In this document: positions 1 to 63,405 of the stretch, piece after piece
Numbering within the stretch: the first letter of the stretch is position 1
Layout of the letters: every line of letters starts with the position of its first letter
Source of the DNA: Bryoerythrophyllum caledonicum
Taxonomy: Eukaryota > Streptophyta > Bryopsida > Pottiales > Pottiaceae
Length of the DNA stretch: 64,000 bases
Direction of reading: 5' to 3'
Assembly: GCA_963971425.1 (NCBI GenBank)
Contig: OZ020515.1
Span: 32,933,856-32,997,855, forward strand
Program-made: the position numbers and the translations under genes
The notes under the pieces: generated by a model
What the model was told of the DNA's origin: nothing
Databases searched by the model: none
The model's input: the letters and a program-made list of their open reading frames with translations, nothing else

Positions 1-421
1 GTGTATTCCTTGAGGAATTGTCGTACGAACGGGAGCTCCCACCTAGAGGTCTGTTACGCTCAACCAACCAGACATTGTAAACGTCCCTAAGGCAATGATA
101 GAAGAGACTCACACCGTTTAAGAAGACTTGTTGAATAGGCCAGGTCTTAAACGAGTACCTCCACTCATCGGGAGCTTCGTCTAAAACAAAAGTACTGGAC
201 ACCTGTACTACAACATTCGAATCCCCAAGAGGACCAAAAGAACCTAAAAGTGCACTGGACCGGACATTGCGAACCAACCCCTCCGCAACGCGAACACCCG
301 AACCATTGTGAAACGAAACAGTCATCCCGACCCAGAGACGGCGAGGAATAACATCAAACTCAGGAAGGTCTGGATTCACGGGAGCGTCAAGATGAACATC
401 GTTGCCCTCCGAAGACGACAT
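1..421 (-). CDS. Partial hypothetical protein, open at the left edge
   Basis: On the minus strand an ATG at 421-419 opens a frame of 140 codons that runs off the window without a stop. The protein starts MSSSEGNDVHLDAPVNPDLP and later contains the aromatic stretch WRYSFKTWPIQQVF. I recognise no domain. Smooth amino-acid composition, the absence of stops and a reasonable start context (GGATGT) argue that it is real. A second ATG lies 8 bases upstream in another frame and gives only a short peptide. The region just upstream (603-966) carries the palindrome array also seen around the other host-like genes, so the gene probably belongs to the same genic island. It may be spliced, in which case the left part could be intronic. 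Confidence 0.5.
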   Translation of the reverse strand, partial: MSSSEGNDVHLDAPVNPDLPEFDVIPRRLWVGMTVSFHNGSGVRVAEGLVRNVRSSALLGSFGPLGDSNVVVQVSSTFVLDEAPDEWRYSFKTWPIQQVFLNGVSLFYHCLRDVYNVWLVERNRPLGGSSRSYDNSSRNT

Positions 422-602
422 CCTGCATTCCAATGAGATACATATTAAATAACCCTGACAAATAAAAATGGCTAAACGCCTTGTAGGAATAGACATTTAT
501 GAAGAAGCATAGGAAGAGGGTAATTGATCTCAAATCGAGGTAAGGTCTGGCGCTTGAAAAAAAACTATGATTCAAGTGAGCTGACATGGCAGACCAGGTA
601 AA

Positions 603-623
603 TTTAGCTCGACTCGAGGTAAA
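603..623. repeat. Palindromic element, single copy
   Basis: A 21-bp near-perfect palindrome (one arm mismatch: GAGGTAAA instead of GAGCTAAA) centred on 613. It belongs to the family described for 711-966. Confidence 0.8.
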
Positions 624-710
624 CTCATGCGGTATAAGATGACAAGTATAAAATTTCATGCAATTAGCTATAATCCGAATATGAAATTATCTCACCCTTG
701 ACAAAGACAA

Positions 711-966
711 CTAAGCCCGACCCGACCTAAATTTATGACTATCAGACTCATTGTCATTTTAACTCGAGTCAAGGTAAACAGAAATAGGACATCAGATATG
801 TCAGTTTAGCTCGAGTCGAGCTAAACTTTCCTTCAAAAGAAGGTAAGACAATTTAGCTTGACTCGAGCTAAACTATCGATAATAATATTTATCGACAGTT
901 TAGCTCGAGTCGAGCTAAATTGTACTAGGAAAGAAGGTAAGACAGTTTAGCTCGACTCGAGCTAAA
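711..966. repeat. Array of six palindromes with an exact 47-bp period
   Basis: Palindrome centres fall at 721, 768, 815, 862, 909 and 956, every interval being 47 bp. The unit is arm TTTAGCTCGA, one central C or G, then TCGAGCTAAA. The copies at 815, 909 and 956 are perfect, 862 has one change, and 721 and 768 are decayed (for example CCCGACCCG). The 26-bp spacers differ in sequence, although two share AAAGAAGGTAAGACA. Regular palindromes and spacers imitate a CRISPR array, but the same palindrome is scattered singly in introns and the genome is eukaryotic. The array lies upstream of the minus-strand gene at the left edge and could be in its promoter or 5' UTR. Confidence 0.85.
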
Positions 967-1600
967 CTGTCCTTCCGTGATTTCCGGCGTCTTTTTAGGG
1001 ATTCATATGGTAAAGCTCTTCAGCATATGAATCTGACTCTCTGTGTACTACAACCCAAATCTTCCCGTCAGTCGTCACGAAACTCGCAGTGATGCTTCAA
1101 AATCACAGTAGCAACTGGAACCACCGCAATAACCCTACACACTGTCACATCCTAATTGCTAGAGACTGTGCACAGAGAATGCAAGAAGTATACATTGTGT
1201 ACCTTATGAAGAAGACAACTGGTGTGTTATTGCCTCGCGCAAGCGCCCTGCTCAACCGTGCGTAACCTGTAGATGTTACCCTCCTCAACCTCCGACAGTT
1301 CTTCTACCTCCAAGCCTCTCCACAACAACCTTGCACAGCAACCAAAGTGAGAAGGAAAGAAATGAAGAAAGTTTTCGAGGATCGGCGAGGTCACTCACGG
1401 ACACACGACCGTTTCAGAATTGGCGGGAGGAAACTTCAGAATTGGCAGGGGGGCTTTTCCACAGCCCCTAAAAAGATGCAAATTCGAAATCTTAGCGGGA
1501 AACAGAATCAACTATTTCCTGGCTGACTAAAATAAGGAAGAGTACATACCTCGAATATACTCGCACATGCGAGTTATATACAAGGTTTTAGAGTAATGCT
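967..1600. other. Non-coding stretch upstream of the left-edge gene
   Basis: No convincing reading frame on either strand. It is of moderate GC content and could be promoter or 5' UTR of the minus-strand gene at 1-421. A short near-duplicate (CAGAATTGGCGGGAGG / CAGAATTGGCAGGGGG) lies around 1415-1455. Confidence 0.3.
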
Positions 1601-1606
1601 CAGGGT

Positions 1607-1712
1607 TTGGGTTAGGGTTAGGTTTAGGATTTAGGGTTAGGGTTTTTAGGGTTTGGGATTTAGGGTTTAGGGTTTGGTATTTAAGTTCAGGTTTTAGGGT
1701 TCAGGGTTTAGG
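1607..1712 (+). repeat. Interstitial degenerate telomere-like repeat
   Basis: About 105 bp of imperfect GGGTTTAG/GGGTTAG units, the plant-type telomere heptamer (TTTAGGG) with many variants. The units are too degenerate, and flanked by too much unique sequence, to be a chromosome end. Such tracts mark old double-strand-break repair or plant telo-box regulatory DNA. Confidence 0.8.
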
Positions 1713-1779
1713 GTCCTTCGTTTAGGTGTTATCTTCTGATGTCATTTCATTTCAATATAATAAAACTTTGAAGATTGAA

Positions 1780-3060
1780 GATATTTGCCAATTCAACTAA
1801 GGTATAGGGAAATCTAGAGAAGATATTGAGATGATTAGAAATAAATTGTATTACAATCCAAATAGGACAAATCTATTATGTTGAAATCAAAGACCTTAAC
1901 AAACAAGTAGCATTTTTTAAAAAAACATGTTATATGTGTACGTGTATTTTAAGCAAAAAAGTATGTATTCAAACATGCTTTGGACATCATTTCTTTGGGG
2001 TTTTAAAAATGTGCATCATGTTACTATTTTGTCATCAATTTAGAATGTGCATTCTTTGGCAAGAATCCCAAGTGTCTCCATGGTCTGGATTTGGAATTGA
2101 AATTGGTTACTAATATTTTGAATTAAAATATCTTATATTTGAGTTCACATTGCATTATCATGAGTTTAGGGTGTGGCAATCTAAGCATGACATGAAAGAT
2201 GGAAGAATTCTTGACCATACACAATTTATTTCATGTTTTGACGTGAAATTAAAGACTTTGTCATTTGTAACACATAGAGAGGAGAATAATATTAAAAGAT
2301 TTCAACAAGGAACGGAGAGACCTCCTCATGACAAAAAAAGGATAATCAAAATATAAAATATAACTAATACAAAGTGTATCACTTAGTGCATCAGGCATAA
2401 TTTAATGTTCGTAATGTAAGTAATTTTGAATTTATTTATACATGCAAAAAAGGAATAATTAGTTTTTGAGCACGTTCTAGTGGTCGCAAATTATATTTGA
2501 AATTCTCAAAATTTTGTAGAAGGATGATAAAAGTCATGAGGCATAATTATTAGTAATTTATTTTCTCAATGAACGTCTTCAATAAAAGTTATGCCAGCCA
2601 AAAGAGAAACTTCTCGATTGCCGGCACGTCGAGCAACCTAAAAAACGTTTTGCTATGACTCAGTATGGAATGTGATATTTTGAATACATAGAAGTAATAT
2701 TAGAACGAATGATATTGTGGAAAAACATGTTATTCTTCTAGTGAAAAATAAGATTACATCCCAATTCATACATTTTCACACATTGTCACATATTATTGAT
2801 TTAGGGTACCAAGAATACTTAGACTTCATATCCACTAAAGACTAGGGGATTGTCATATTTTTTTGCTTTTTAATATTACTATTGGAGATTTAGGTCCACA
2901 TATTTTGAAAATCCTTTTAAAATTCAAAAGATTACTATTTCACTTGTGAAATACTTAACCATAAAGAGAAGTACGGAGTTCAAAATGATTGTTTGTAGAA
3001 GTGGATATACACATTGCACATACATGAGCTCGGTTTTTAGCAAAGGTGTTTACCATCACT
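1780..3060. other. AT-rich intergenic DNA
   Basis: AT-rich sequence with only short, compositionally non-coding frames (for example 68 codons at 2150). I see no gene, terminal repeat or RNA gene in it. Confidence 0.4.
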
Positions 3061-3095
3061 TTGTGCAATGAACCAAAAAGAGTGTATGCACACAC

Positions 3096-3254
3096 TTTAG
3101 CTCCAGTAGCACTAACGTGTGCCTCATCACTGGGTGCAGTGAACTAAAAAGAAAATATGCACAGTTTAGCTCTACTAGTGCTAAATTGTGCACCATCACT
3201 AAATGGAGTAGATTAGAAAGCAAAAATGCACTATGTAGCTCCAGTATACAGAAG
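3096..3254. repeat. Three diverged palindromes with a 69-bp period
   Basis: Diverged members of the palindrome family start at 3096, 3165 and 3234, exactly 69 bp apart. The arms keep TTTAGCTC and GCTAAA but the inner bases vary (CTCCAGTAGCAC, CTCTACTAGTGC). The spacers share GAACTAAAAAGAAAATATGCACA. The same 69-bp unit recurs at 5850-5939. Confidence 0.65.
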
Positions 3255-3749
3255 ATGGCTTCTAGAGAAGTGGACACTAAATAGGAATCCATATAGTAAT
3301 TGTAAAATGAACAATAAGTGTAGTGTCAAAACTATACATCACCCAATGTCAACTACTACTCTAAATGTCAATCCTAGTAAATAGTGGAACATAAAGTTTT
3401 TTACTTGTGGACAATTAGTTTAGGAAACCATAATCATGGTTTGCTTACATCTTGAGCATCATAGTAAGGAAGGGTTGAGTGCATGTAGAAAAGCAAGAAT
3501 TTGCAAGAAAGAGCTTGGGAATAATCGGACGTAGGTATGGAGCAAACGAAAAATATCAAAAATTGGACAAAGTAGAATGTAAAATATGGAGGGAAAATGA
3601 AACTGCAAGTAGAAGATTGGAAATATAAGAACATTCTTCTGGAAACAAAAATGAGAAAAGAAAGGAATATTGGAAAAGGAAAAAACTTAAACATACAATA
3701 AATATAGAAATACAAGTAAAATACTCAATAGATATCCATCACATATTAT

Positions 3750-3987
3750 AACACCAACCTCATTTTATTGGGAGATTTCCAAGATTTTGAAAGTTATGAA
3801 CGGTTTTTCCAATACATTTTTTTGGTGCACATTCAGCTCAACTCAAGCTGAATATGTACCCATATTGTAGATATTGGACAAATTGCATTGTGCAAATTTA
3901 CTAAATATTTGCATATTTAGGTCATTCTCAAGCTTCAAATATTATTTTGGGAGGCTCCCAATCTTCCAATAAAATGAATATGGTGTT
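3750..3987. mobile_element. MITE-like element, 238 bp
   Basis: Imperfect terminal inverted repeats: the left end begins AACACCAACCTCATTTTATT and the right end is AATAAAATGAATATGGTGTT. Both ends are flanked by TTAT, consistent with a 4-bp target duplication. There is no coding capacity. A diverged palindrome of the TTTAGCTC family (3832-3852) lies inside it. A second right-end-like sequence (CCCAATATAATGAATATGGT) occurs at about 16308-16334 without a visible left partner. Assignment to a DNA-transposon superfamily is not possible from this. Confidence 0.5.
3832..3852. repeat. Diverged palindrome with compensated arms
   Basis: Arms TTCAGCTCAA and TCAAGCTGAA around a central C. The outer change (TTT to TTC) is matched by AAA to GAA on the other arm, keeping the pairing. 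Confidence 0.55.
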
Positions 3988-4613
3988 TTATGCATTCAAT
4001 GTGCATTACATATTCAGTAAATATTCATTAAATACTTATTGAATATTCAACTACACATTAATTTTACATTAGAAATTTATGCACTATTCATTATCTATTC
4101 ATTAACAGTGCATTAAATACTCTATAAATAATCATTAAATATACAAATATTAATTAAACTATCCTGAAATATACTTTTAAAACTTCAAACATTCATTAAG
4201 TAAAATTTAAATATTCTTTAATTGTGCATAGAAGTTTTAGATATACAAATATACATGAAGTATCCTATAAAAAATCATTACAAAGTCATTAGTTATTGGC
4301 TAATTATATGATTACACATTAAATATTCATTTGGATAATATTAAAAAATATTAAAAAAATGCAAGAGATGGGAATGAGAATAGTTGTGGATAAGACGATA
4401 AGAAATTGAGGTTGAAGATGAGACGAAGAATAAATGCATGGCGTTTGGTAGGCATAACATATTGAGCTTATTCAATTTATCAAGTATCAAAATTGTGTGC
4501 TAGGGAAGAGTTTTGATAGAAGGCTATTACAAAATGAACTGTAGCAGGTGAACAAATGAGGGATAATATTCATGACAATGGTGGCTAAAACTAGTTGCCA
4601 ACTTGTTGACTAA

Positions 4614-5382
4614 TCATACTACTAAAATCAAAATCCACGCAGTGAACCACGTAGTCAACCGTGCGGTGAACTACATAAACAGTGCAGTCAAACGCGCAGT
4701 TAATTGCGTAGTCAACCGTGCAGTGAACCATGTTACATTTTTATTATATATAGTTTGTATTATAAAAACTACATTACAAAGGTTGGACATATGCATTGCA
4801 AAGCAAGCGCCAATTGCTAGGAACGGTGCAGCCAACCGCACAGTGAATCATGTTACCTTTTCTTTAATATAGTTTGTAATATAAAACCACGCAATGAAGT
4901 TGGAGTTGTGATCTTGGAGGTTGGCATACAAAGTTGGAGTTGCAAAATTGCATATTCGAGTTGTGGAGATTGAAATTACAAGTTTTGAGGTGAGATTGCA
5001 AGTTTTGAGATTGTAATTGCAAATTGAGTTTGTGGGTGTATAAAATTGAGATTGTAATTGCAAGTTGAGTTTGTGGGTGTGTGAAATTTGCATTTGTGTG
5101 TTGCAATTTGTGCTTACCCAAAATAAATTTGAAAATCTTAATTACAAATTTGACGTTCATAACGTTTTTGAAATTCCATGTTAAAATGCAAAAAAATCTA
5201 AAACGTAATTAATTTTTTTCTATTCTATTCTATTACATTATTAAAATTCATGCATAGGTTTCAAAGATATATTTATATTTTATGTAGATTGTTGTTACCT
5301 TTCTTTTTTTAATATTTTGTGATTTAAAAACTACATGAAAATGGTTGAACTAATGCGTTGCAACGCAACCGCCAACTGCTAG
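4614..5382 (+). mobile_element. Non-autonomous Helitron, 769 bp
   Basis: The left end begins with TC (TCATACTACTAAAATC, close to plant Helitron 5' ends). The right end is CTAG, preceded by the perfect hairpin palindrome GCGTTGCAACGC about 10 bp upstream, which is the Helitron 3' signature. Insertion is between A (4613) and T (5383), with no target duplication. An internal copy of the 3' end (GCGCCAATTGCTAG, about 4810-4833) suggests a nested or recombinant terminus. A related copy lies inverted at 50610-51450. No Rep/helicase is encoded, so it depended on an autonomous element elsewhere. Short frames in it are low-complexity and not genes. Confidence 0.8.
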
Positions 5383-5398
5383 TAGTGTACTAGAAATA

Positions 5399-5782
5399 GA
5401 GAATCTCCACCGGGGCCGAGGGACCGGGATGCGAGAATAAACATGTAAAGCCCACTCCGTGAGGCCTAGGCTGGTGTACCGGCCCACTGGAGTGGCGGCG
5501 CCGGTTCTTCTAAACAATAAATTTACAGAAAGTACAGGGGAGACTAAAATTCCCCGGGAGCATGTGTTCAATCATGTAATTACACGAGGGAATTAAAAAA
5601 AATCAATAAAAACCCCAAAACAAATTAGCCTACTATGGCGTAAGTGTTGGGCGCTGGCGTTCCCTCACAGTGGCCAATTCGGGACGGTGCGGGGGGAAAA
5701 GGGTAAACCCCCCTCCCTTCATCTCAAACTTGGGCACCTTCCCGCTGGCGTGGAAAATTCCCCGTCAGGGGTGGAGATGCTC
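5399..5782. mobile_element. MITE-like element, 384 bp, TA-flanked
   Basis: Terminal inverted repeats GAGAATCTCCACC (left) and GGTGGAGATGCTC (right), 12 of 13 matching, flanked on both sides by TA. Ends of the GAGCATCTCCA type are common in plant Tourist/PIF-Harbinger-like MITEs. The interior is GC-rich with no gene. It lies 16 bp to the right of the Helitron end. Confidence 0.6.
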
Positions 5783-5849
5783 TAACTACTGGATTTGTAC
5801 CGTTAAAGTAAAAGCAAAATGAAGTGAAAAGTAAAGAAAAAATTCACAC

Positions 5850-5939
5850 TTTAGCTCTATTAGAGCTTAAGTGTGCACCATCAGGAAATGTAGGAAACTA
5901 AAAAGAAAATATGCACACTTTAGCTCCAATAGAGCTAAA
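5850..5939. repeat. Two palindromes 69 bp apart
   Basis: Copies start at 5850 and 5919. The first has inner bases CTCTATTAGAG, in which the usual CTCGA/TCGAG pair has become CTCTA/TAGAG, a compensated double change. The intervening sequence contains AACTAAAAAGAAAATATGCACA, as in the 3096-3254 array. Confidence 0.75.
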
Positions 5940-6689
5940 GTGTGCACCGACATTTATTTTATAATTATACAATTGCAAGATGTGGTCTTAACATACTTAA
6001 TGTCAGTTCGATTCTCAAAGTATATAATATCAAACTCATAAATAATCAAAACGTGAATTGAAAGTAATAGAATCTTAAAATCGTAGCTTTAAAACTCTCT
6101 TAAGTGTGCTTTACCTAATAATTGGTGTAGGAGGAACTTATATACATCGATGGTAATGAATTTACTCCTTCTCGAATGTAGAAATTGAAATCCAGTCAAG
6201 TGAAAGCCAGTTGATCCACTGAAAGCATGAAAGAAAACTAAACACTATAATCCTATTTGTAACAGTAAACACTATAATCGTTCACTTCCGTCCAATCCAA
6301 GTTTATTGAGAAAATGCCAATTTAGAAGTTTTAATTGAGATCATACGAATGAAATTGGAAATAATCACATTTCTTTTGCTACCTGTTCGTTGCCCCAGAA
6401 TATGCAAAATTGTAGTGTTGATGGCCAAGAAAAATTGTGTAGGAAATTTACGAGTACAGAAATACAACACGCGCGTAATATCTAGAACTTACAATAGAAA
6501 GATTAAAATGGCTTCTTGAAACTCCGGGTATCAATAATGAAGGTGAATAATTTGTGGTGCATCCATCTGTAATATCCGAGGGTCTCACCCGAATATCACG
6601 AAGGGTATCCCGAGGGTATGTCGGGAGCACCACACGGCCACAGGGTTTTGACCCTCACGGCTTTAGGTGCCCCCGAAGGTACCCTACGA

Positions 6690-7665
6690 AATCCTAGCAC
6701 TCGCTTTTTCTCTTCCTTTTTGTTGCTGTGAGTTTTGTGTGTGTCCGTCTACACGTTCTTGTTTTGTGAGGGTTGTGCGTTTATGCGTCGGTTCGTCGTG
6801 GTTTTGTGTGTGTTTGTCTAGGCGTTGTTGTTTTCTAAGGCGAGTTTGCTGTTTGTGTTGGTTTCGTAATGTTCACGGTCTGTTAAGTTTGTGTATATTG
6901 TACCGCTGCATTTAGGCTTTCGTGCATTTAGGCTTTCGTGGAGGTTAGGGTTTCCTGCAGATAGGGTTTGTAGGACGTGTGATTCTTTGTTGTGAGAGTT
7001 CGTGTCCACTGTAGCGCTGGAGTTTAGGGCTGTTTGTGTGAGATTGTGAGAGTTTTTGTGAGTTTGTGACAGTTTGTGAGTTTATGTGAGTTTCTAGGAG
7101 TTTCTGTGAGTGTGTGTGAGTTTCTTTGAGCACATACAGTCTGAAACGGCGGTGCTCGGAGGATTGACGTGAAGAAGGAACAAGACTTGCAGCTTTTTCA
7201 GTCGGATTTCTTAGTTTTAAAGGTGACTGCACTCATTCTGTCTTGCATTTCTTTTGATATTTGTGTAGTTTTGCTTTAGATATGATGTATTGAAACAATA
7301 TGATAGCATTGCTTTTGATGTATGTGTGAGAAGGTAGATGAGATTGTGTATTCAATGTGGTAGTTTGAATGTGGTGGTTTATGGTTATTTGTCGTGGTTT
7401 GTGCTAGTTTAAATGTGCTGGTTTGTGCTAGTTTAGATGTGCACATTGAATTCAATGTCGTGGTTTCAATTGCTAAATTCAATGTGCTGAATTCAATGTG
7501 TTAATTTCAATGTGCTCATTTCAAAGTGCTGATTTCATTGTGAATGATTTCAATGTGTTGGTTTCCATGTGCTACTTTGTTAGATTTTGTGTTTGTGGGT
7601 TTGTTATTGTTGTTGCAGGACTTCTAGTTCCAGCAGAATTTGTCTGGGATTCAGGTTCATAATCA
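6690..7665 (+). promoter_or_regulatory. Putative promoter, 5' UTR and UTR intron of the ParB/methylase-like gene
   Basis: A pyrimidine-rich stretch (CTCGCTTTTTCTCTTCC, about 6702-6718) looks like a transcription start environment, though no clear TATA box is seen. A likely UTR intron runs from about 7222 (AAAG|GTGACT) to 7619 (TTGTTGTTGCAG|GACTTC), placing the start codon in a short 57-nt exon. TG/GTGAG-rich low-complexity sequence occupies 7030-7130. Inferred from splice signals only. Confidence 0.4.
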
Positions 7666-10600
7666 ATGGCTGAAAGGTAAAATCCATGCTTCTCATCCAG
7701 GAGCCCTAAACCCTACGCCTTCAATATCATATAACGAAAGACGGATCTGCACAAACTGCAATAAATATGCTCTTCAATGAACACAGTTTAGCTCGAGTCG
7801 AGCTAAACTAGGACATCGATATTGCACTACTGTCCACACTTTAGCTCGACTCGAGCTAAATTGGGCCTCCACTGTGCAAAATGGGCCACACTTTAGCTCG
7901 ACTCGAGCTAAAGTGGGGCCACCACTAAGCAATATGGCCCACACTTTAGCTCGAGTCGAGCTGAAGTGAGATCCCCAGTGTGCTCTTGTGGCTGCATTTA
8001 CCTCGACTCGAGAAAAGTGCGCTCTCCAGTGCTCTTTTGGCTACATTTAAACTCGACTCGAGGTAAACCATGGCCAATGAAGCACTCTGGAGAGGGCACT
8101 TTAGCTCGACTCGAGCTAAAGTGTGGTCAATAGTGCACAATGGAGGCCGTCTAAAGCTTGAGTCGAACAAAAATGTTCGACTTAATACGTCTATGGTTGC
8201 GCCAAAGCCGACTGCAGGAACAATAATCATAATAACTACTCTCAAACTCTCGGTCTGAAAAATGTCATGTCCTTCCAGTAAAGCCAACACTCTTTACCTC
8301 GAATCGAGCTAAAGTGTATGACAATAAACTTAAACAACTCAAACACAACAACACTCGGACTTTAAACATTCCAAAGGTATAGTAAACCAATGATATCAAC
8401 GACCCAACTCATGTCCACTTCTCGTTATATTTTCACATGTGTGCAAGAGCTTCAGTCTCGCTTCAACCACTTGAGAACCTCAAAGAGTGAGGTTCATGAG
8501 TGATTTAAGCGTGAACTGAAGCTCTTTCACAGTTCTGAGAGTTAAACGAGAAGTAGCCATGATTTGAAAATAAATGTATAGGAAAGTCGTTTGAATGAAT
8601 ATTGTAAGTGTCAAAACTGTTCAGCTATGCATTCCATGCATGAGCAGTTTAGCTCGAGTCGAGCTAAAGATGAAGGTTAAACTTGAATACAACATTGATA
8701 CATTGGTGTAATTGCAGTCTCCTAACTCAACTCACGTCTACTTTTCGTTCACCTCTCATAAATCGTGCAAGAGCTTCAGTCCCGCTTTAACCACTTGAGA
8801 ACCTCTAAGAGTGAGGTTTGTGAGTGATTTAAGCGTGAACTGAAGCTCTTTCACAGTTCTGAGAGTTAAACGAGAAGTAGCCATGATTTGAAAATAAATG
8901 TATAGGAAAGTCGTTTGAATGAATATTGTAAGTGTCAAAACTGTTCAGCTATGCATTCCATGCATGAACAGTTTAGCTCGAGTCGAGCTAAAGATGAAGG
9001 TTAAACTTGAATACAACATTGATACATTGGTGTAACTGCAGTCTCCTAACTCAACTCACGTCTACTTTTCGTTCACCTCTCATAAATCGTGCAAGAGCTT
9101 CAGTCCCGCTTCAACCACTTGAGAACCTCTAAGAGTGAGGTTCGTGAGTGATTTAAGGGGAACTGAAGCTCTACCACAGTTCTGAGAGTTGAACGAGAAG
9201 TAGGCATGAGTTGATTGTAAGCGTCTAAGAGAACAGTCTAATTGACTAGATTTTGTTGCAGAGTATTATTAACATACTTGTATTTAGTTACACATTAGCT
9301 CGAGTCGAGCTAATGTGTGACCTCGCCGTCCTAATCGGATGATCATTAAAACAATCTAATATTTGTGCTCCGTTTCGTGTTTGTGCAGATCTGAGAGGGA
9401 CAGGATGGTATTTCAGCTGCAGCACTTCTTCCAGCCAAAGCCTGTCGACATTGACGATGACGATGGAGACGACAACAACCACTTAGATTGCTGGGAGCTC
9501 AAGGATCCTTTGATGACACTAAAGTGGACGCTGCTGTGGGCCCCCTACACAGAGAATCTAGTGTTTGGTCAGACCTTCGCTGGTGATATCCGTGAACCCC
9601 AGCACACCGACTTCAAGACCAAAATTATTGATGTAGTCCACGAAGATAACGATATAGTGAAGTTGTCGTGTGAGACAACCACTGAGTCTGTCGTTCCTTA
9701 TATATTCACTATTGTAGTGAACAATACTTCGTCTCCCTTCTCTATCTTCGACTTAGTCAGTTCTCTTAGGGGGTCACAGTTTGATGACATAGTGGCTCAG
9801 GTCGACCACGAAATCTCCCAAAAGAAATGGGAGACTAGTAGTGGTGAGCCGCTGAAAGCGAAGGCTGTAGCTAATAAACTCCGCGTCATTCTTTCCAGAA
9901 TGAGTACTTTTGCCGCTCTTGAGAAGGCAAAATTAATCGCATCTAGGCGCCCAATAGAACTTTCGGTAGTTTCTCGTGCCGTAACAGGTAGCCAGAATAT
10001 AAGTCAAGCATCGGTACCGGTAAGAACTCCAAGTGCAAGAGCAAGTCGAAGCACCGTGCGCAACACGCTGTCAGCGTCTCCCTTCAAGAAGCGCTCAGCT
10101 GCCAAGAAGCCGGAGACTTCTTCCAGGAAGAAGACGAAACTCGTTTCAGAGGAAGACTTGGCCAATTCGATGGCCTCTGCACTGTTGGAACTCCCTTTGG
10201 CGCTCGAATTCGGAGAGGTAACAGACTACACCAACGTCCAACAGATATATCAGAAATTCTAGACGGAGTCTCAGAGCTGTTTTTTCCAAGGAGACAGAGA
10301 GATGAAGATCGAGCTTGATGTGATGAGGCTGCATAATGCACCGCCGGAGTGGACGATCCGTGCATTCGAACCTCGGGGTATGGAGGAGTTGAAGCATTAC
10401 TACCTCGAAATGTCGGACAAGACGCAGAAGCAGACTCTCTACGTCATGCCCAAGCTCGATCATATGCCAACGAAGGTTGAGGAGCTCAGCGACTGCGACT
10501 TCTATATCATCAACGGCCAGCACAGCGTTGCTACATCAAAGTCGATGATAAACGGTACCGTACCGGAGGTTATGAGAAGGCACTTCCGAACATGGCAGTG

Positions 10601-13600
10601 TTACATTGTCTGGACGAAGGACCCTGAGAAGCTGAGGAAGATTTCCGCGTATTATAATCGCGTAAATCACTTGGTCCAATTCAAGCCGACGTGGGCAACA
10701 AATATCCTTGGCTCTCGCGCGTTGTGGATCCAAGCTGGAAGACCGATGCCGAAGCACTCGGCTGCAGGCATTCACGGGTCCCATAGATCAGGTCGGAGAA
10801 CGGCAGTGGAGATTGCCAATGACAAGAAGTTTGAGGTAATTAATCTTAACCACGGTCATGCACTTTAGCTCGACTCGAGGTAACTTCTGTGCTTGTCCTT
10901 CTTAGTATAGTTCTGTATACAGATTCAAGCACTTAGAGTGTACACTCTCCGGTTGCAAGTTAGCTCGACTCGAGTTAACCTGCATTTTTGGGTCCTGCTG
11001 GTTTGGTTTTTTTCCCTCTGTGGTTGTACGCTAAATCAACACTGCCAATATTCGGCGGCGCAAGGCGACCTCTTTAAGGTGGATTCAACAACGTCGCCCT
11101 TGTCAAAGTTTAAGGATGCCAAGTCCTGGGTGCCTGAGAAAGATGGGGTATTGACGCGCGAGTTCTTTAAGTTTTTCGGCAATATGACCGAGGCTGATTA
11201 CGCAACGCTGTGTAAGCATATTCTTAATCGATCAGGGCCATCGCGAAAACTACCTTATCCTAAGGTGGTTGTAAAGCAGCCGCAATCAGTGCTGGAGGAT
11301 TGCTACAGCGCCCGGGACTGGGTCGATCGAAGGAAGAGGAAGGAGGTCGCTCGGATGGAGCTTCAGTTAATCAGGCCGGAGCTCCCCTTCTTCAACAGCA
11401 CTAGGGCGTACACTCGTTCCAACTGGCGAAAGTTCAAGAAGGACTACAACGTCAGCAAGGCCTCAAGGCGTGCCCTCTTCGATTGGGGTCCACCGGATTC
11501 GTACTACGCAAACTCAAGGCAGACGCAATTTCGCAACTACAAATGTGAAGTTCTCTCTCCGTATGCGAAGGAGTTCTTCAGAGTCTTCCTCGATGTGCGA
11601 GCGCGGTTCGTTGCACCTCTGGGGGCCTTGCACTTTCGTCCATACAAGGCGGCAACCAACTTGCTCGGTGGATGGCCCTCGGATTCGTGGCGTAACTTGG
11701 GCTGCAACGTGAAGCTCGGCATCATCGACTTCCGTAATATCCCTGGGTTCGCAGGGAAGGCGACGTCATCATTGGAGAAGCCCTTCTTCGACGAGTTCAT
11801 GACAATGTTCGCATCGAAAGGGCAGCCTTCTCTCACCGGTCTTCCAGCGTGGCTCTTCATTTGCGGCGACGAGCAGTCACACCTTCAAGTGACAACGTTT
11901 GCTGAGGGCCCGTCGTTGTGCCATGCGTACGACGTCCTGCAGTCGAAGTATCTTCCTTCCGACAACGAGCGCTTGGGGGGATTCGCGCCGAAGACCAACA
12001 ACGCTCTCGACCCGGTTCGCCTCCTCTTTCTCTTCAAGAAAGAGCTTATGCAGATTCCGGCCGTGAAGAAGATCTACGCAACTCCGGAGCATGTGTTGCA
12101 CACCAAGCTACGCAAGTACAACGAGCTGGCGTACTCCATGAACATGAACGAGCCGAGAATGGAGTTCTTCATCAAGGTTCTGGAGCTGTTCTGCAAGAAA
12201 GGGGATTCTACTGTCCAGCTGTTTTGCGGGACAAAATTACTGACTGCGAGTGTGGTGAGTATCCTTGCAGTTTAGCTCGACTCGAGCTAAACTGTTGATC
12301 CCCTCTCTGACTGTGAATGTATTGTTTCAGAGAGGTCGTCTCTCATGCTTTTGTAGCGTGGCACTTTAGCTCGAGTCGAGCTAAAGTGCAGACTTATACT
12401 TATATGGTTTTCTAGCAGTCGTCAATCGCGTCATATTCTTCCAAGTTTTAATGGCTGCGTTTTCATATCAGTGTTCTTTTGTGCTCACTTTAGCTCAAAT
12501 CGATCTAAAGTGTAACTTGTTTAATCCATTGGTGTACAGATGTTGGATCTGGAGGCATTCTGCATATCCCACGACACCGATGAGCAGGACCTGGACAACG
12601 CCCAAGATGTAGCGTTGACGTTGGATCGGGCCGATTTCGTTATTGGTTCATATCACATCAACGCGGAGATCTTCCTTGAGCTTGGAGAGGCTGTTGCCAA
12701 GGGGAAGGGGAAAGTGATTATCGATCTCATCGATGAGGAGGAGGAGGATGTGGTCCCGAGCCCCATTGGTGTGTGCCCGAGCACCAGTACGGTCACACCT
12801 GATGCTGATTCCCATGAGGACTTCGATACCAACACTCCGGCGGAGCTTCATAGTGGCTCTCAGTCTGAAGCGGGAGAGACAATGGGTACCTCGCGGCAGC
12901 GGCTTGATTTCGTGGAGTTGGAATTGCTTGATATCTCCGAGAGGCCTCATTCAGCTCCGACCTTGGGTGGGTCATCCGCTCGCCCCGCAGCCAAGAAGAG
13001 AAAAGTTGCGAGCACGACCGGCCGCTCACCGTTGGCGATGGCGAGCAGTGCTCAGGATGACATCAGGTTTATCGCCCTCGAGAAGAAGCTCGAAGAGGAG
13101 GCCTCCCGGATGAGGTTGATGGAGCAGCGGCTGGCGGAGCGTGACGAGGAGTTCAGGGATATGCAGCGGAGGCGTGACGAGGAGATGAAGAGGGACCAGG
13201 ACCAGAGGCATAACGACATGATGCTGATGATGCCGAGATTCATGACGGCTACTATGCCTCCTGTCGCCACGACACAAACCGTAGTGAATTCTACGATCCC
13301 TCATCCTCCAATCTCAGGTGACGATGAGACTAGGAGTCTGCCTCGCGGTTCGCTTATGCCGTCTCCGGCGGGTTCCTCCCCCGTCTCCACGGGCGCTCAA
13401 TCGCTGCCTGATCCCCCGTCCCCGCCGACCCGCCCCTCTTCCTCCCCGAAGTCGCCCGCTCGGGACGATTCTGTCGTTGATGTCCCCAGCTCATCGTCAG
13501 GTTAGTGTAACATAGTTGCGAATGTATAGAGGTAGAACATTTTGTAAATGTCCAATTTTGTACTCCAATATTTTTGTTAATATTACAGTGCTCAATGAAC

Positions 13601-13992
13601 ACTTTAGCTCGACTCGAGCTAAACTGCTTGACATGTGACGACTCTGACATTGTATCAGTGTCCAATGTGCGCATGAGCTGATGGGTTGAAGTTGTTGAAT
13701 TTTTTCAGATCTTAGTTTTGGTGATGACGCGATTGCTCAACCAATCGTAGATGAGGTCGTCCAAACTGTAGTCCCAGTCGTAGAGGATGTCGTCCAATCT
13801 TCGGCCGTGCTCGTAGACGAGATCAATCGTGATTCTCCTGTCCAGGAGCCCGCTCTTCTTGTCTCGGAACCGTGCCCCCAAATGGTTCTGGAGCACTCGA
13901 GGGCCCTTGACACCGTGCAAGTTTCGTTGGAATCGATGGGGGTCCGAAACGAATTGCTCCAAGACGATGAAGTTCTCGAAGTGCTCTTCTAA
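7666..13992 (+). CDS. Multi-exon protein with ParB-like domain and degenerate adenine-type DNA methyltransferase-like region
   Basis: Proposed exons are 7666-7676, 9389-10217, 10275-10835, 11079-12254, 12540-13500 and 13709-13992. All junctions keep frame and give about 1273 aa. The first exon supplies MAE plus two bases of an Arg codon that exon 2 completes, then SERDRM. The exon 2 part ends with a basic, NLS-like stretch (KKPETSSRKKTKL). The next part (about residues 300-480) resembles the ParB/Srx fold: FEPRGMEELKHYY, then FYIINGQHSVATSK in the position of the ParB GxHR box, then AYYNRVNH. Exon 4 resembles beta-class N6/N4 DNA methylases, in which the catalytic motif precedes the FxGxG SAM motif: KLGIIDFRNIPGF stands where D/NPPY/W is expected, and STVQLFCGTKLLTAS resembles the SAM loop and runs over the exon 4/5 junction. 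ParB-methylase fusions are common in phages and bacteria. The loss of DPPY suggests no catalysis. The C-terminal third is acidic and low-complexity with a coiled coil rich in E, R and M (about 13070-13210). The 57-nt intron at 10218-10274 could instead be read-through with one in-frame TAG. Family assignment is inference. Confidence 0.55.
7787..8172. repeat. Intronic array of eight palindromes, mean period about 52.4 bp
   Basis: Within intron 1 (7677-9388) palindrome centres lie at 7797, 7850, 7902, 7955, 8007, 8057, 8110 and 8162, giving intervals 53, 52, 53, 52, 50, 53 and 52. Perfect or near-perfect copies are at 7797, 7850, 7902, 7955 and 8110, with decayed ones at 8007, 8057 and 8162. 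Flanking bases are also complementary (CAC...GTG at 7902). Two spacers are themselves inverted (GTGGGGCC...GGCCCACAC). Confidence 0.85.
8293..8313. repeat. Isolated intronic palindrome
   Basis: Arms TTTACCTCGA and TCGAGCTAAA around a central A at 8303, with one arm mismatch. It lies in intron 1 of the ParB/methylase-like gene. Confidence 0.7.
8440..8531 (+). ncRNA. Candidate hairpin RNA, copy 1
   Basis: A 92-nt foldback. AAGAGCTTCAGT (8445-8456) pairs with ACTGAAGCTCTT (8515-8526), CGCTT (8459-8463 region) with AAGCG, and AACCTCA (8476-8482) with TGAGGTT (8488-8494), leaving a 5-nt loop AAGAG. By hand I count more than 30 paired positions with few mismatches. An outer stem (CACTTCTCGTT with AACGAGAAGT) extends the foldback to about 170 nt. 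This is the size and shape of a plant pri-miRNA, but a foldback transposon would look the same. Expression is unknown. Confidence 0.35.
8764..8855 (+). ncRNA. Candidate hairpin RNA, copy 2
   Basis: Second copy of the foldback, offset 324 bp. The 12-bp basal stem is unchanged. One loop-side pair is lost (AACCTCT), and a G-C pair becomes G-T on the 3' arm. Confidence 0.3.
9088..9178 (+). ncRNA. Candidate hairpin RNA, copy 3 (diverged)
   Basis: Third copy, with a 1-nt deletion and changes in the lower 3' arm (AAGGGGAACTG, CTCTACCAC). The 11-bp core GAGCTTCAGT/ACTGAAGCTC remains. Confidence 0.25.
9294..9314. repeat. Intronic palindrome with compensated outer pair
   Basis: Centre 9304. Arms ATTAGCTCGA and TCGAGCTAAT, with the flanks ACAC...GTGT also complementary, giving a 29-bp perfect palindrome. 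The outermost T-A pair of the consensus is flipped to A-T on both arms. It lies in intron 1, 75 bp before exon 2. Confidence 0.8.
10864..10979. repeat. Two palindromes in intron 3
   Basis: Copies at 10864-10884 (GAGGTAAC right arm, imperfect) and 10959-10979 (GTTAGCTCGA / TCGAGTTAAC), both inside the proposed intron 10836-11078. If this intron were not spliced they would be translated, so their presence supports the intron. Confidence 0.75.
12271..12509. repeat. Three palindromes in intron 4
   Basis: Copies at 12271-12291 (flanks CAG...CTG), 12365-12385 (flanks GCAC...GTGC, a 29-bp perfect palindrome) and 12489-12509 (inner CTCAAATCGAT, decayed). All lie in the proposed intron 12255-12539, spaced 94 and 124 bp. 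Confidence 0.8.
13603..13623. repeat. Palindrome in intron 5
   Basis: A perfect copy (centre 13613, central C) within the proposed intron 13501-13708. All introns of the long gene except the 57-nt one contain at least one copy. Confidence 0.8.
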
Positions 13993-14093
13993 CACTATCC
14001 ACACTCTGCGCTTCCCCATGTTGCTTCCCCCCCGTTTGCTCTCTTCGTTCTACATTATGTTGACTTGTCGTTGTTAATGAATCTTTAGTAATA

Positions 14094-14918
14094 TTGTTCG
14101 TTGTCCTGGCGTTTCCGAACCAGGTCTGCGAGGCATCAATAAGTGGTGCCAGTAATTTAGAAGAAATACCTAGAGTCTATTCAGATTCCGAGGGCAGATG
14201 GTTGAATGTTGTGCTGGACCTAAATGGGATTCTATGCACTTGTAAGCCATCGTGGCAAGCCAGGAGATCCAGGGACTCTATCCCGTCCATTCACTCGGCC
14301 TCGCTGCCGGCCGAAGTAGGCCCTAAGCTTGTTCGGGTGCGCCCTGGTTGTGCTGAATTCCTTACGAAGTTGTCTAAGATTGCCACCATCACGATCTGTA
14401 GTTCAATGATGGAATCTACAACACGTGAGATATGTCAATATCTTTTTCAGCATAGTTTTGCGTATCCTCTCAGGATCTTTGGTCAGGAGAGTTGCGATAG
14501 GGTTCCTGAGCGTAGAGTCGGTATCATAACAATCTACATGAAGGAATTTGACACTCAGAAGGACATCTTCTTGAAGACCTTATCGAACGATTTCTTTAAT
14601 AGGTTGGGCCGTGAGTATACTCCGGCAAATACGCTTGTCATTGACGATAGCCCGATTAAGCACATGCTCAATTTGCCGGAGAACGTCCTTCTTCTTCCGT
14701 CCTGGTCGCACAACCATGATGGCGCGAGACATGATTCTGTACTGCTGGAGGAATTGCTACCATATCTCTCTGACCTTCATCAATATTCGGTTGGCCTAGC
14801 GCAGTACCGTGCTGAACATTCCTCGGGTCGGGAGATGTTCTATAATGATCAGAAGACGTGTGGTCAGTCTGCAAGTATTAGTAACGCAATTCAAGCCTAT
14901 CAGAATCTCCGTTCCTAA
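14094..14918 (+). CDS. FCP1/NIF-type HAD phosphatase-like protein, divergent
   Basis: A 274-aa frame. The motif VVLDLNGILC matches HAD motif I (DxDxT/V) in position, but the second Asp is Asn and Thr is absent. VRVRPGCAEFLTKLSKIATI followed by ICSSM fits the FCP1-homology region with motif II Ser, and NTLVIDDSPIKHM is motif III. These features define the NLI-interacting/FCP1-like (CTD phosphatase-like) family. The DLNG variant of motif I makes activity uncertain, because the third residue normally acts as general acid. The first eleven codons may be non-coding: a splice-acceptor-like CCGAACCAG precedes GTCTGCGAG at about 14125, so the real N-terminus could come from an upstream exon. It follows the ParB/methylase-like gene by 100 bp on the same strand; whether it is a separate gene or part of the same transcript is unresolved. 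Confidence 0.65.
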   Translation: MFVVLAFPNQVCEASISGASNLEEIPRVYSDSEGRWLNVVLDLNGILCTCKPSWQARRSRDSIPSIHSASLPAEVGPKLVRVRPGCAEFLTKLSKIATITICSSMMESTTREICQYLFQHSFAYPLRIFGQESCDRVPERRVGIITIYMKEFDTQKDIFLKTLSNDFFNRLGREYTPANTLVIDDSPIKHMLNLPENVLLLPSWSHNHDGARHDSVLLEELLPYLSDLHQYSVGLAQYRAEHSSGREMFYNDQKTCGQSASISNAIQAYQNLRS

Positions 14919-14950
14919 TGTGGTTGGAAACGCTTAGATCCTTAATACAC

Positions 14951-14971
14951 TTTAGGTCGAATAGAGCTAAA
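14951..14971. repeat. Diverged palindrome downstream of the phosphatase gene
   Basis: Arms TTTAGGTCGA and TAGAGCTAAA around a central A, 33 bp after the stop codon, probably in the 3' UTR. Confidence 0.6.
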
Positions 14972-15296
14972 TTGTTTCGTTTGACTGCAGCTCCATTTTG
15001 TAAATTTTGTTGGGCCGTGTTTTGTATATATTTTTTGATAATACAAGTGGTGATGTTTCTCCACTGAATTTATTGTGCGGATTGGATACCTACTGCAAGT
15101 GAAATGTCGTCCTTTTTTTAATGATTGGAATTTTTATCTATTGTTCTGAGGTATGTGAGTGTCACTTTTGTTGAAATTTCTACAGGGCTGTGATTGTCGG
15201 GCGTCCGTGGATTCCTTGTTGGGCCCACATGAGTTCGCCCTTTCCCTTCGGAGTAAAGGGCTTTTGTTGCACTCTGCTGCAACCGTGCACTCAACC

Positions 15297-16016
15297 ATGG
15301 ATTATTCGACCATGGCAGTGGACGTCGGAGTTGTTGAAAGCCCTATTGCGCGGGAGCCAATTCATGAAAGGAACAATTCACCTTCGCCGCAGTGGCCTCG
15401 TTCAGTTCCGGGGTCTCCGCGCCTAAACCTGGATAATTGTATTCCGGCAAAGGGTATTCTCTATGACGGTTTAAGGGATGCCACTCACCACCGCTCGCTC
15501 ACGGTGCGTGTTATACTGACCTCCAAGTTATTGCAGTATTGAGTCGTTCTTGCCTAGAGAGTCTTGGTTTGTTGTTGAGGTACCTTGCACTCTTGTAGTT
15601 TTGCTTCATTTGAGCTTGTTTTTGTTCATTGGATATTAAATGTGCTCTGATAATTTTCCCTTCTGCATTTTAGCTCCATTTGAGCTAAAGTGCACTAGGA
15701 TGGATCTTGATGATACAGTTTTTTTGTGTTGTCGTGTAGGTGTATTCGACCTAAAGTGTATTTGTTTGGATTGTTTGTGGCGCCTATTGTATAGGAACCA
15801 TCTGGTAAATGTCTTCGCCCCCGTATTCTCTCAAGAAATGCTGCTGGAATCAAATGCTCTCCTTCTGCTCCCACCCGCCGTCACTCGCTGCCCAAATCAA
15901 ACACGGACGAGGTGCGAAGGCGGGGTTTGCAGCGTCTTCTTGATAGTCCATTAATGCAAGAGAATGGCGCAACATGGACTCGGCAACGTCTGAGGGCTTT
16001 TCTGAAGACGGTATAG
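15297..16016 (+). CDS. Two-exon hypothetical protein, 142 aa
   Basis: Proposed exons are 15297-15503 and 15795-16016, joined in phase 0 (CTCACG|GTGCGT ... TTGTATAG|GAACCA). The ATG at 15297 has a good context (CAACCATGG). The frame is also open upstream to an acceptor-like TTTCTACAG at 15184, so an extra 5' exon is possible. The second exon reads EPSGKCLRPRILSR and ends RQRLRAFLKTV before TAG. The protein is rich in Ser, Pro and Arg. No domain is recognised. The intron carries a palindrome (15668-15688), like the introns of the neighbouring gene. Confidence 0.5.
15668..15688. repeat. Diverged palindrome in an intron, rightmost copy seen
   Basis: Arms TTTAGCTCCA and TTGAGCTAAA around a T. A further half-decayed copy may exist at about 15738-15758. 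I found no member of the family to the right of this point in the window. Confidence 0.65.
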
Positions 16017-16340
16017 AGGCTTATGGAGGGACTCCCTAGACTGTTTGATTAGTAATAGGGCGATTGTGTTTTGCGTCGAGGTAAATGAGTGTTGTGTGTG
16101 ACTTTTTTTCATGGAGTTTTGAATAAAGCTTGGATTAATAGTATATGCTTCCTTTATCGTTACCACTTTTTTGGACAATCAGCTGTTTTGGTCCATCCAT
16201 GGTAAAAAATACAGTATTCTTGATACATTGTCTTTATGCTTTGCACCTACAAATGTCTATATTTATTGATACTTCAACAACCATATTTCTCCATAGTCAT
16301 GGAAATTTCCCAATATAATGAATATGGTGTTGAACCATTG
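16017..16340. other. Intergenic spacer
   Basis: AT-rich sequence with no gene seen. Near its right end (16308-16334) is a sequence resembling the right end of the MITE at 3750-3987. Confidence 0.35.
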
Positions 16341-16356
16341 GCCGATGACCCCAATT

Positions 16357-17336
16357 GTACCATTGGCACCTTTCCAAAAGTGGGGAGTTGACTTCATTGG
16401 GCCGTTCCAGCCCCTCGGAAGTCAGAAGCACCGGTACATCATCTTGGCGACGGACTATGCCACAAAGTGAGTGGAGGCCAGAGCAACCCGGAAGAATGAC
16501 GTAGAGACTTCAGTGAGATTCCTGTTCGAGAGAATCATAATGAGGTTCAGACATCCACTAGAGTTGGTGAGTGACCGAGGGACCCACTTCTTGAATGAGG
16601 TAGTGGCAGACCTAACCGGAAGATACAACATTTGGCACCGGAAGATAACAGTCCAAAGGCTAACGGTTTGACGGAGCGTGCAAATGGCATTATCTGCAAG
16701 ATATTATCCAAGGTGGTCACTTCCCACAAGACAGACTGGGACAAGAAGCTCACATCAGCCGTCTATGCTTACAATACGGCGTACAAAAGCACTACCGCTA
16801 AGAGTCCTTTCTTTCTAGTGTATGGACAAGAGGCGTTACAAGCCGTCGAGACGGAAGTGGAGACCTTCCGGATCTTATCGTTTTGGCATGGAGACCGGAT
16901 ACCGGACATACATCAACGGCAGGAGGACATTGACAATCTTGAAGAGAGCCGGATGGATGCCCTCGAAAGGACCAAGGAAATTTATGGAAGACGAAAGGAA
17001 AAATACAACCGGAAGTTACCCACGATGAACGGAGTGGAGGAAGGCAGCTTAGTGTTGGTCTTCGACAGCCGTCATAAGGATTTTCTAGGTAAACTACATA
17101 CCGGCTAGATGGGACCCTTTCAAGTTTGTCAAATTTACCCCGACGGATCATTACAACTGGAAGATTTGGAGGGAAGACCTCTAGACACTAGAACTAATGG
17201 GTCAAGGGTGAAATTGTACAAATCGGAAAGCGTTCGCGAGGACGCTCACGAGTGTAAAAGGAATAATGTGGGAAGGCGTTCCCACACACATCCGGACCTT
17301 AACACTAAATCCGGAAGGAAACGAAGAAAAATTTAA
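16357..17336 (+). pseudogene. Ty3/gypsy integrase fragment
   Basis: Integrase catalytic core and C-terminal region. VPLAPFQKWGVDFIGPF carries the first catalytic Asp, LELVSDRGTHFLN the second, and after a frameshift near 16640 ANGLTERANGIICKILS carries the Glu. Two stops sit where Trp is expected: TGA in ATDYATK*VEARA (16468) and TAG in LHTG*MGPFQV (17106); both are TGG changed by one G-to-A transition. The zinc-binding N-terminus, RNase H and RT are missing, so the copy is 5'-truncated. Directly downstream begins the leader module of the gag family (17337), which may be this element's 3' end. Confidence 0.85.
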
Positions 17337-30919: not shown

Positions 30920-32046
30920 CATGCGCAGGATATAGATTTCAGCGAAGACAACTACAAGAATCTCAACACTTCTATGCTCTTTGCTGTCAAGGAACGAGTG
31001 GACAATACTTTTGAGTACCATGGGGGCCTTGGCAAGGTGACAGAGGAGGCTTTCCACAGCATTTTGAAGGGCCAGTTGTGAGCCGCAAAAACGGCTCACG
31101 GTGATGAATGGACCTCACGTCGGGTCCATTAAGGCTAATGAGTGGTGAAAATGGGTTATCCCATGGACTAGCTCGTGGTTTTTTGATTAAAATGCCCAAG
31201 TGGCCTTTCCCCTCACTAAAAGAGGAGCCATTTAGGGGCAATCGCGGAATTTATGTAGTTAGCCAAAAAGGAAGAAAAAAAAAGGGAATAAACCAGAAAA
31301 AAAAACAAAGAGAGAAGGGAAAAAAGACAAAAGAAAATTAGAAAAGAATTAAAATGAGTAGTGGTGGAGAAGAATTTACCTCCTATCGAGTTGTAGACCG
31401 TATTCGGTCACGATGAAGAAATCACGAAACCATAAAAATGGGAGAAGAAGAAGGAGGATGGTGAGGAGAAAAGAAAAAAGAATGGGGCGTTAAAAGCCCT
31501 TAAAAAAATAGTCAAAAGGGTCCAAAAATAAGTGGAAAAGAATCCTCATCAATCACTAAGTAAATTAGGAATTACCCCAAGCAAGGGGAATTCAATTTAG
31601 GTAGGTTAAATTAGATTTTTGCACCTTTGAAAATTAGCTAATAGCTCACTTATTGAGATCATGCACACACATGTGGCATGGAGTCAAAGTTTAGATTTAG
31701 ATATTCCTTGGTTAGTGGGACACCCACTTGTGTTAAATGCAAGGGTGGCTAGTGATTTATTAACTTTTTAGTTACAAGTTGTTTAGTGTGACCATTAATG
31801 TGCCCACCCAAAATGGCGGCTGTGAACGACGAAGGGAACGACCTTGGGAACAAAGAAGGGAGCAAGGGCCTTAGGGTCACCCCCTTGGAGGGCGCTCATT
31901 CGAAGTGTGGGAGGTAGGAGTTAGAGAGGTGTGTGGTAGGAGCTAGAAAACCGAGAGAGGTGTGTGGAAGTGAGAGAGAGGTAGGATTCCAAATTTCCCC
32001 CTCCTATGGGCTGGAATGTGATTCAATCGTTACGAAAATTAGAGAG

Positions 32047-63190: not shown

Positions 63191-63194
63191 TGGG

Positions 63195-63405
63195 CGGAAA
63201 CCCACGGCGGAAACCCACGGCGGACACCCACGGCGGAAACCCACGGCGGACACCCACGGCGGATACCCACAGCGGACACCCACGGCGGACACCCACGGCA
63301 GGTACCCACGGCGGACACCCACGGCGGACACCCACGGCGGACACCCACGATGGACACCCACGGCGGATACCTACGGCGGACACCCACGGCGGACACCCAC
63401 TTAGT
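63195..63405 (+). repeat. 12-bp minisatellite, about 17 copies
   Basis: Unit CGGACACCCACG with variants (CGGAAACCCACG, CGGATACCCACG, CAGGTACCCACG). Open frames on both strands through it (poly-WVSAVGVRRGCP-like) are a by-product of the 12-bp unit. Confidence 0.95.

Follow-up and report, generated by a model that had tools for sequence, protein, structure and literature searches.

We have found that a family of short palindromes in the moss Bryoerythrophyllum caledonicum belongs to a Sola1-like DNA transposon and its miniature derivatives, and that the palindrome arms are conserved above their surroundings, in their letters as well as in their symmetry. The palindromes lie in a 64,000-nucleotide stretch of contig OZ020515.1 (assembly GCA_963971425.1, positions 32,933,856 to 32,997,855), hereafter referred to as the window. 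It is hypothesized that they are recognized by a dimeric DNA-binding protein that the transposon itself encodes, most likely the ParB-methyltransferase-like product of its accessory gene, ORF2, a reading to which we give about an even chance.

Palindromes inside a DNA transposon

Sites of the form TTTAGCTCGA-N-TCGAGCTAAA occur 34 times in window positions 1-16331 when up to five mismatches are allowed, with 12 exact sites and 4, 6, 5, 2 and 5 sites carrying one to five mismatches, respectively. The chance expectation for 16.3 kb, from 20 first-order Markov resamples, is 0.1 sites, each at five mismatches. The remaining 47.7 kb (16332-64000) holds a single match, at 40188, with five mismatches and none with fewer. 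A first-pass annotation made from the window's letters had counted about 33 copies between 0.6 and 15.7 kb, and both its count and its limits hold. Genome-wide, the exact palindrome occurs 3707 times in 437 Mb, clustered among the rows listed, and its backward control not at all.

The same annotation had assigned the copies to introns and gene flanks of a genic region and stated that they are absent from the 48 kb of transposons that follow. Introns and gene flanks are indeed where the sites lie, but the genes are not ordinary ones: the palindrome-bearing stretch is the right-hand 16.3 kb of a DNA transposon of 19,727 bp that continues leftward to window position -3395, and three further palindromes lie left of the window inside this element. 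Nine of ten fetched palindrome clusters align to the window stretch, with DNA similarity mostly 72-96% by block. Among the aligned clusters, five share the left end (-3395) and five the right end (16331), one (c1362) reaches neither, and the remainder are cut by the fetched stretch or truncated. A regulatory motif of host genes, taken as an initial reading, was rejected since these nine clusters are element copies and the tenth is a relative from a second family (family B, below).

The left end of the element is exactly AACACCATATTCGTTATATTGGGAGATTT, a 29-bp terminal inverted repeat (TIR) whose right counterpart differs by two mismatches. Allowing up to three mismatches, element ends number 1249 and 1242 on the two strands (2491, miniature elements included), with none for the reversed control. 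A 4-bp target-site duplication (TSD) flanks two of the three copies seen at both ends (GAAC in the window, TAGG in c1315; c766 lacks one) and six of seven full-length TIR pairs sampled. When the flanks of the window copy are joined over GAAC, one frame stays open across the junction for more than 90 codons; from its motifs we take it to be a Gypsy-type integrase, and a Pfam scan of one flank open reading frame (16632-17108) gave no match. The element thus appears nested in a Ty3/Gypsy pol gene (16336-17108 and L005 5834-6604, L005 being the fetched locus that covers the left side), which is open over the joined flanks. The first-pass annotation had held that identification as the ends of a known transposon family would overturn its proposal; this is half the case, as the motif does belong to a Sola1-like transposon but is dispersed internally and subterminally in it and does not form its ends. 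The palindromes are likewise not the ends of a known miniature inverted-repeat transposable element (MITE), being internal and different in sequence from the TIR.

Features of the window are as follows, with strand where assigned.

1-16331: right 16.3 kb of the DNA transposon, from copy alignment (element at -3395 to 16331; -3395 is L005 position 6605)
1-422, minus strand: 5' end of the gene for the probable transposase, a DUF7869 protein (PF25273, E 1.2e-40), with the rest at L005:7593-9926
524-966: palindrome group 1, eight sites, six at 47-bp spacing, some 100 bp upstream of where DUF7869 likely starts
3096-3185: palindrome pair of CTCCA and CTCTA core types, 69-bp spacing
3750-3987: nested MITE with related TIRs, TSD TTAT and one TTCAGC-type palindrome (3832-3852)
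5850-5939: palindrome pair of CTCTA and CTCCA core types, 69-bp spacing
7666-13992, plus strand: ORF2 accessory gene, five exons by our reading of splice sites and frames, 5' edge of exon 3 not placed
7787-9314: palindromes of ORF2 intron 1 (7677-9388), an array at about 52 bp (7787-8172), then 8293, 8648, 8972 and 9294
10864-10979: two palindromes of ORF2 intron 2
12271-12509: three palindromes of ORF2 intron 3 (12255-12539)
13603-13623: palindrome of ORF2 intron 4 (13501-13708)
14094-14918, plus strand: NIF-type (CTD-phosphatase-like) gene (PF03031, E 1.9e-17)
14951-15755: three palindromes toward the right end (14951, 15669, 15735)
16303-16331, minus strand: right TIR, 29 bp
16332-16335: right copy of the TSD, GAAC

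Under our exon model (5,092 bp of coding sequence in view), none of the 34 palindromes overlaps coding sequence; the sites occupy introns, DNA ahead of the DUF7869 gene, and intergenic and subterminal DNA. ORF2 introns 1-4 hold 18 of them, and 18 of the 34 form arrays with spacings of about 47, 52 or 69 bp, as measured from coordinates.

Constraint on letters and symmetry

Divergence was compared among up to ten copies at 17 sites, picked by hand for being single-copy and aligning well; this excluded array sites and those that are weak or copy-specific, such as 524, 711, 758, 3096, 3832, 8152, 8648 and 15735. Divergence over the compared positions is 5.4% for arms, 17.8% for flanks and 18.3% for third codon positions of exon 3, and arms are less divergent than flanks at 16 of the 17 sites; the copies are related, so that these ratios are not independent tests. 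Constraint is strongest in the outer heptamers, TTTAGCT/AGCTAAA (4.3%), weaker in the core CGA.TCG (7.9%) and loosest at the centre (23.7%). The GA-N-TC in the core equals the target of the methyltransferase CcrM, which would explain the free centre, but its G is one of the arm positions that vary more.

A second family of the element, family B, has the gene order of the window's family A, with proteins 28-66% identical. Its palindromes, which mainly read TTCAGC...GCTGAA, occupy introns 2 and 3 and the DNA upstream of DUF7869, and past exon 2 they form an array spaced at about 52 bp. Positions 3 and 19 are C.G in 19 of 23 sites of this element, versus T.A in 28 of 32 sites of the window element, and two further B copies have C.G in 13 of 21 and 12 of 18 sites. 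The arms thus differ as a set between element families. Exact B sites number 674 genome-wide, and 20 with no other listed exact site within 1 kb were sampled. These associate the palindrome with mobility: thirteen sit in miniature elements of 163 or 237 bp that carry the element TIRs and one palindrome each, with a 4-bp target duplication in 12 of the 13; here the palindrome can reach 17-bp arms. Miniature elements with superfamily TIRs and a single palindrome, about 150-240 bp long, were seen at 3750-3987, at L005 2923-3074 (window -7077 to -6926, where the palindrome centre is lost), at L020 84-246, and in those 13 of loci L039-L058. Among aligned copies, the one at 3750-3987 is common to the window and c469 only.

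The first-pass annotation had also proposed that arm bases change in pairs and that the inverted symmetry itself is maintained. Both proposals are borne out across 214 distinct sites of families A and B, where none of 1000 shuffles reached the observed complementarity, related copies again not being independent. Complementary cells number 791 of 1284 for the six outer flank pairs (533 +/- 17 shuffled) and 582 of 642 for the outer-arm pairs (529 +/- 4); the figure for inner-arm pairs (1352 of 1498, versus 1329 +/- 4) is biased, since the inner core served to select the sites. Within family A alone, flank compensation is barely above chance at -13 (3/37 versus 2.4) and -12 (1/10 versus 0.3).

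Homologues of ORF2 suggest that the intronic palindromes are old. They run past 5' splice sites and translate the palindrome (as SSTRA, LARVEL, LDSS-stop and similar), evidently having been predicted without splicing. Such read-through follows exon 3 in 16 of 77 homologues and exon 2 in 15 of 45, versus about 0.15 in shuffles, counted over homologues not shown to be independent species. All 35 matches fall in the last quarter of the chain; ten are the four-letter LDSS or LESS at the chain end, the weakest form. Exon 3 identity of the motif-bearing homologues is 35-63%. The same motif appears in 1 of 120 listed DUF7869 homologues (204 found) versus 0.44 shuffled, which is no signal. Two ORF2 homologues filed as uncultured cyanobacteria (P0143, P0201) carry sequence of this transposon with a read-through palindrome, and are probably moss DNA in bacterial bins.

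Candidate binding proteins and rival explanations

The DUF7869 protein is the probable transposase, and its gene is interrupted by an in-frame stop in the window copy. Among 29 DUF7869 sequences, an invariant D occurs in each of the blocks MHDKMDH, QMDN and GHTH..(D)A, which may form a DDD triad. Sola elements have a DDD transposase and 4-bp TSDs, some exceed 15 kb, and they occur in Physcomitrella (PMC10741241 and PMC9033089, excerpts). The 4-bp duplications are present here and the 29-bp TIRs fall within the reported range of 11-1124 bp (PMC10741241, excerpt), which is consistent with a Sola1-like element, whose transposase may be of the DDD type. Of the 204 DUF7869 homologues, 120 were listed, and those of them that carry an organism name come from two moss genera, Ceratodon and Physcomitrium. 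A PDB sequence search with the DUF7869 profile gave no convincing match (best E 0.18), peptide patterns found no relatives in IMG/VR, and a search of one paper collection for DUF7869 returned no paper.

ORF2 lies on the strand opposite to DUF7869, and its window copy is decayed. From predicted folds of two homologues (P0199, P0150), ORF2 appears to combine a ParB-like half in exon 2, modelled with the fold of a ParB-N (CTPase) domain, and a methyltransferase-like half in exon 3, modelled with that of a beta-class amino DNA methyltransferase. In sequence searches, Pfam gave nothing above curated cut-offs for the ORF2 exons and homologues, and PDB gave no match for the N-half and an unconvincing best E of 0.36 for the C-half. 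The element also carries a NIF-type phosphatase gene, present in both family A and family B (42-43% identity).

A coevolving dimer encoded by the element is suggested because the letters are kept, the site is two-fold symmetric, the sites are spread over non-coding DNA, and they differ by family. Proteins of the ParB type recognize palindromes as dimers, and from these loading sites they spread. ORF2 is the best candidate because of this mode of reading and because it diverges more between families (28-52% identical) than the compared part of DUF7869 (66%, residues 1-360). ORF2 dimers would bind TTTAGCT-7 bp-AGCTAAA in family A or TTCAGCT-7 bp-AGCTGAA in family B. In the manner of ParB and KorB, bound dimers would load at the arrays and then spread, and the element's own DNA would be marked, either through amino-methylation or through exclusion of host silencing. 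Such marking would control transposase expression and permit mobilization of full and miniature copies.

Several points weigh against ORF2 as the binder. The N-half model is of moderate quality (mean pLDDT 73, pTM 0.43), Foldseek found no match for it at E <=0.001 (best 3.0e-3), and helix-turn-helix hints in the sequence are weak (E 0.078 and 0.71), with none among the listed fold matches. The strand on which we place methyltransferase motif IV reads IDFR in place of the expected DPPY, its D and R invariant or nearly so, and catalysis is therefore doubtful. The sites themselves are not uniform: mixed arms (C.A or T.G) occur in 2/23, 6/21 and 4/18 sites of the three B copies, and 7 of the 20 sampled B sites lack an element TIR within 300 bp on either side. 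The relatedness of the compared copies tempers the divergence ratios as well.

The DUF7869 protein could instead be the binder and is the main rival to ORF2. The palindromes would then serve end assembly, as do subterminal repeats of hAT elements, and promoter autoregulation, which we consider unlikely but well ahead of the explanations that follow. The gene-less 163- and 237-bp miniature elements keep their TIRs and one palindrome, DUF7869 likely starts about 100 bp downstream of palindrome group 1, and a half-site, AGCTAAAGTGCAC, is found some 63 bp away from the left end. The transposase of Hermes (hAT) binds, through BED domains, subterminal repeats of which one pair is quasi-palindromic, but these cluster towards the tips, with five in the outermost 55 bp at each end (PMC10368747, excerpt). 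The moss palindromes are distributed over introns and gene flanks; those closest to the ends of the full element lie 314 bp from the left one and about 576-642 bp from the right one, and 18 of the 34 are in ORF2 introns. The sites have also changed between families, though DUF7869 differs less between them than ORF2 does.

A host transcription or silencing factor, whose site was acquired by elements for expression, is improbable. It would suit arrays placed in front of one gene and within intron 1 of a second, and a two-fold site with one central base is like many dimer sites. However, arms that differ as a set between families of one genome are unexpected for a fixed host factor, and the ten opened clusters were all element copies or, in one case, the family-B relative.

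About equally improbable is a neutral origin, in which template switching within the palindrome makes one arm match the other and flips the centre, giving symmetry without function. The process is described for hairpins (PMC8794818, excerpt). Centre differences are mainly complement flips: 225 of 270 differing pairs at sites with five or more copies (C/G 210, A/T 15) and 73 of 110 at single-copy sites, where both C and G occur at 6 of 16. At 12271-12291 and similar sites, C-to-G and G-to-C flips of the central base are commoner among copies than other changes. In c1315, the palindrome at -2751 is an exact inversion of that in c1251, with flanks not inverted. Most flips, however, leave arm and flank asymmetries in place (81 kept, 8 swapped), so that template switching is only part of the story. 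It may supply paired changes that selection on the site then keeps. Arm-to-arm conversion alone would preserve symmetry but not particular letters, and the letters do persist: at some 30 sites in each element, in family B with one pair changed, and in homologues whose exon 3 is 35-63% identical.

RNA hairpins in introns or leaders, controlling splicing, stability or small-RNA production of element transcripts, are the least probable explanation: the intron placement, with several sites near 5' splice sites and common to homologues, would suit them, but sense-strand changes that keep G-U pairs are not preferred (9 versus 12 other transitions, small numbers among 45 distinct departures), sites also occur upstream, subterminally and in gene-less miniature elements, and positions 1-16400 gave no Rfam match at gathering score. 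Between the hairpin, dimer site and arm-to-arm conversion offered by the first-pass annotation, the dimer site fits best, the RNA hairpin is not favoured, and conversion may add paired changes.

Apart from the palindromes, about 770 bp at 4614-5383 in the window copy are absent from the other aligned copies, and their 41-bp repeats reappear inverted at 50876-50983. Degenerate TTTAGGG telomere-like repeats lie within the element at 1602-1714. The rest of the window includes a 185/372-bp tandem repeat (32039-33059) and 16 copies of a 13-bp repeat, GGCGGACACCCAC, at 63193-63400.

Related systems and implications

The closest known element is the 21.5-kb Sola1-1_Ec32 of Ectocarpus, in which a gene for ParB plus methyltransferase lies on the opposite strand (PMC12477816, excerpt), as does the ParB-methyltransferase-like gene of the moss element. 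ParB-methyltransferases of algal transposons are proposed to bind and modify their own element, with no target named in the excerpted text; "palindrom" and "subterminal" do not occur in the main text of that paper, and its excerpts mention no phosphatase (PMC12477816). Among the matches listed, no literature on palindromes in Sola or moss elements was found.

VANDAL elements are MULE elements. The placement of the palindromes and their family-wise change closely resemble the anti-silencing VANC/VANDAL system: in VANC21/VANDAL21 of Arabidopsis, a short tandem motif occupies introns, intergenic and terminal non-coding parts, in family-specific forms that evolve with the element's protein (PMC5735166, excerpt). 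The moss element likewise has family-specific motif arrays in its non-coding DNA. The VANC21 motif, YAGTATTAY, is however arrayed in one orientation and not called palindromic, and VANC is not described as ParB or a methyltransferase, in the excerpts of that source.

The palindrome sets also appear to resemble parS or operator arrays. KorB lacks a methyltransferase half. It reads a palindrome as a dimer, loads and spreads, and the outer half-site in its operator oligonucleotide equals that of the moss palindrome (PMC11790492, excerpt). TTTAGC and GCTAAA are, however, 1 bp apart in the KorB operator OB, overlapping in the KorA operator OA, and 9 bp apart in the moss element, and family B has TTCAGC. 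The match is treated as a curiosity because the spacing differs, and the shared letters may be due to chance.

A further step, which we hold tentatively and with less confidence than ORF2 binding itself, is a eukaryotic ParB-parS-like transposon system. In such a system, a ParB-methyltransferase clamp would load at the palindromes, spread and mark its own element, and coevolution of site and protein would insulate coexisting families. The palindromes offer a candidate target for the ParB-methyltransferase: a precise 21-35 bp site in two natural forms (TTTAGC and TTCAGC), in families with diverged proteins. With such a target one could ask directly whether silencing is escaped or imposed by eukaryotic transposons through a ParB-like protein, and motif-protein coevolution would gain a second case beside VANC/VANDAL.

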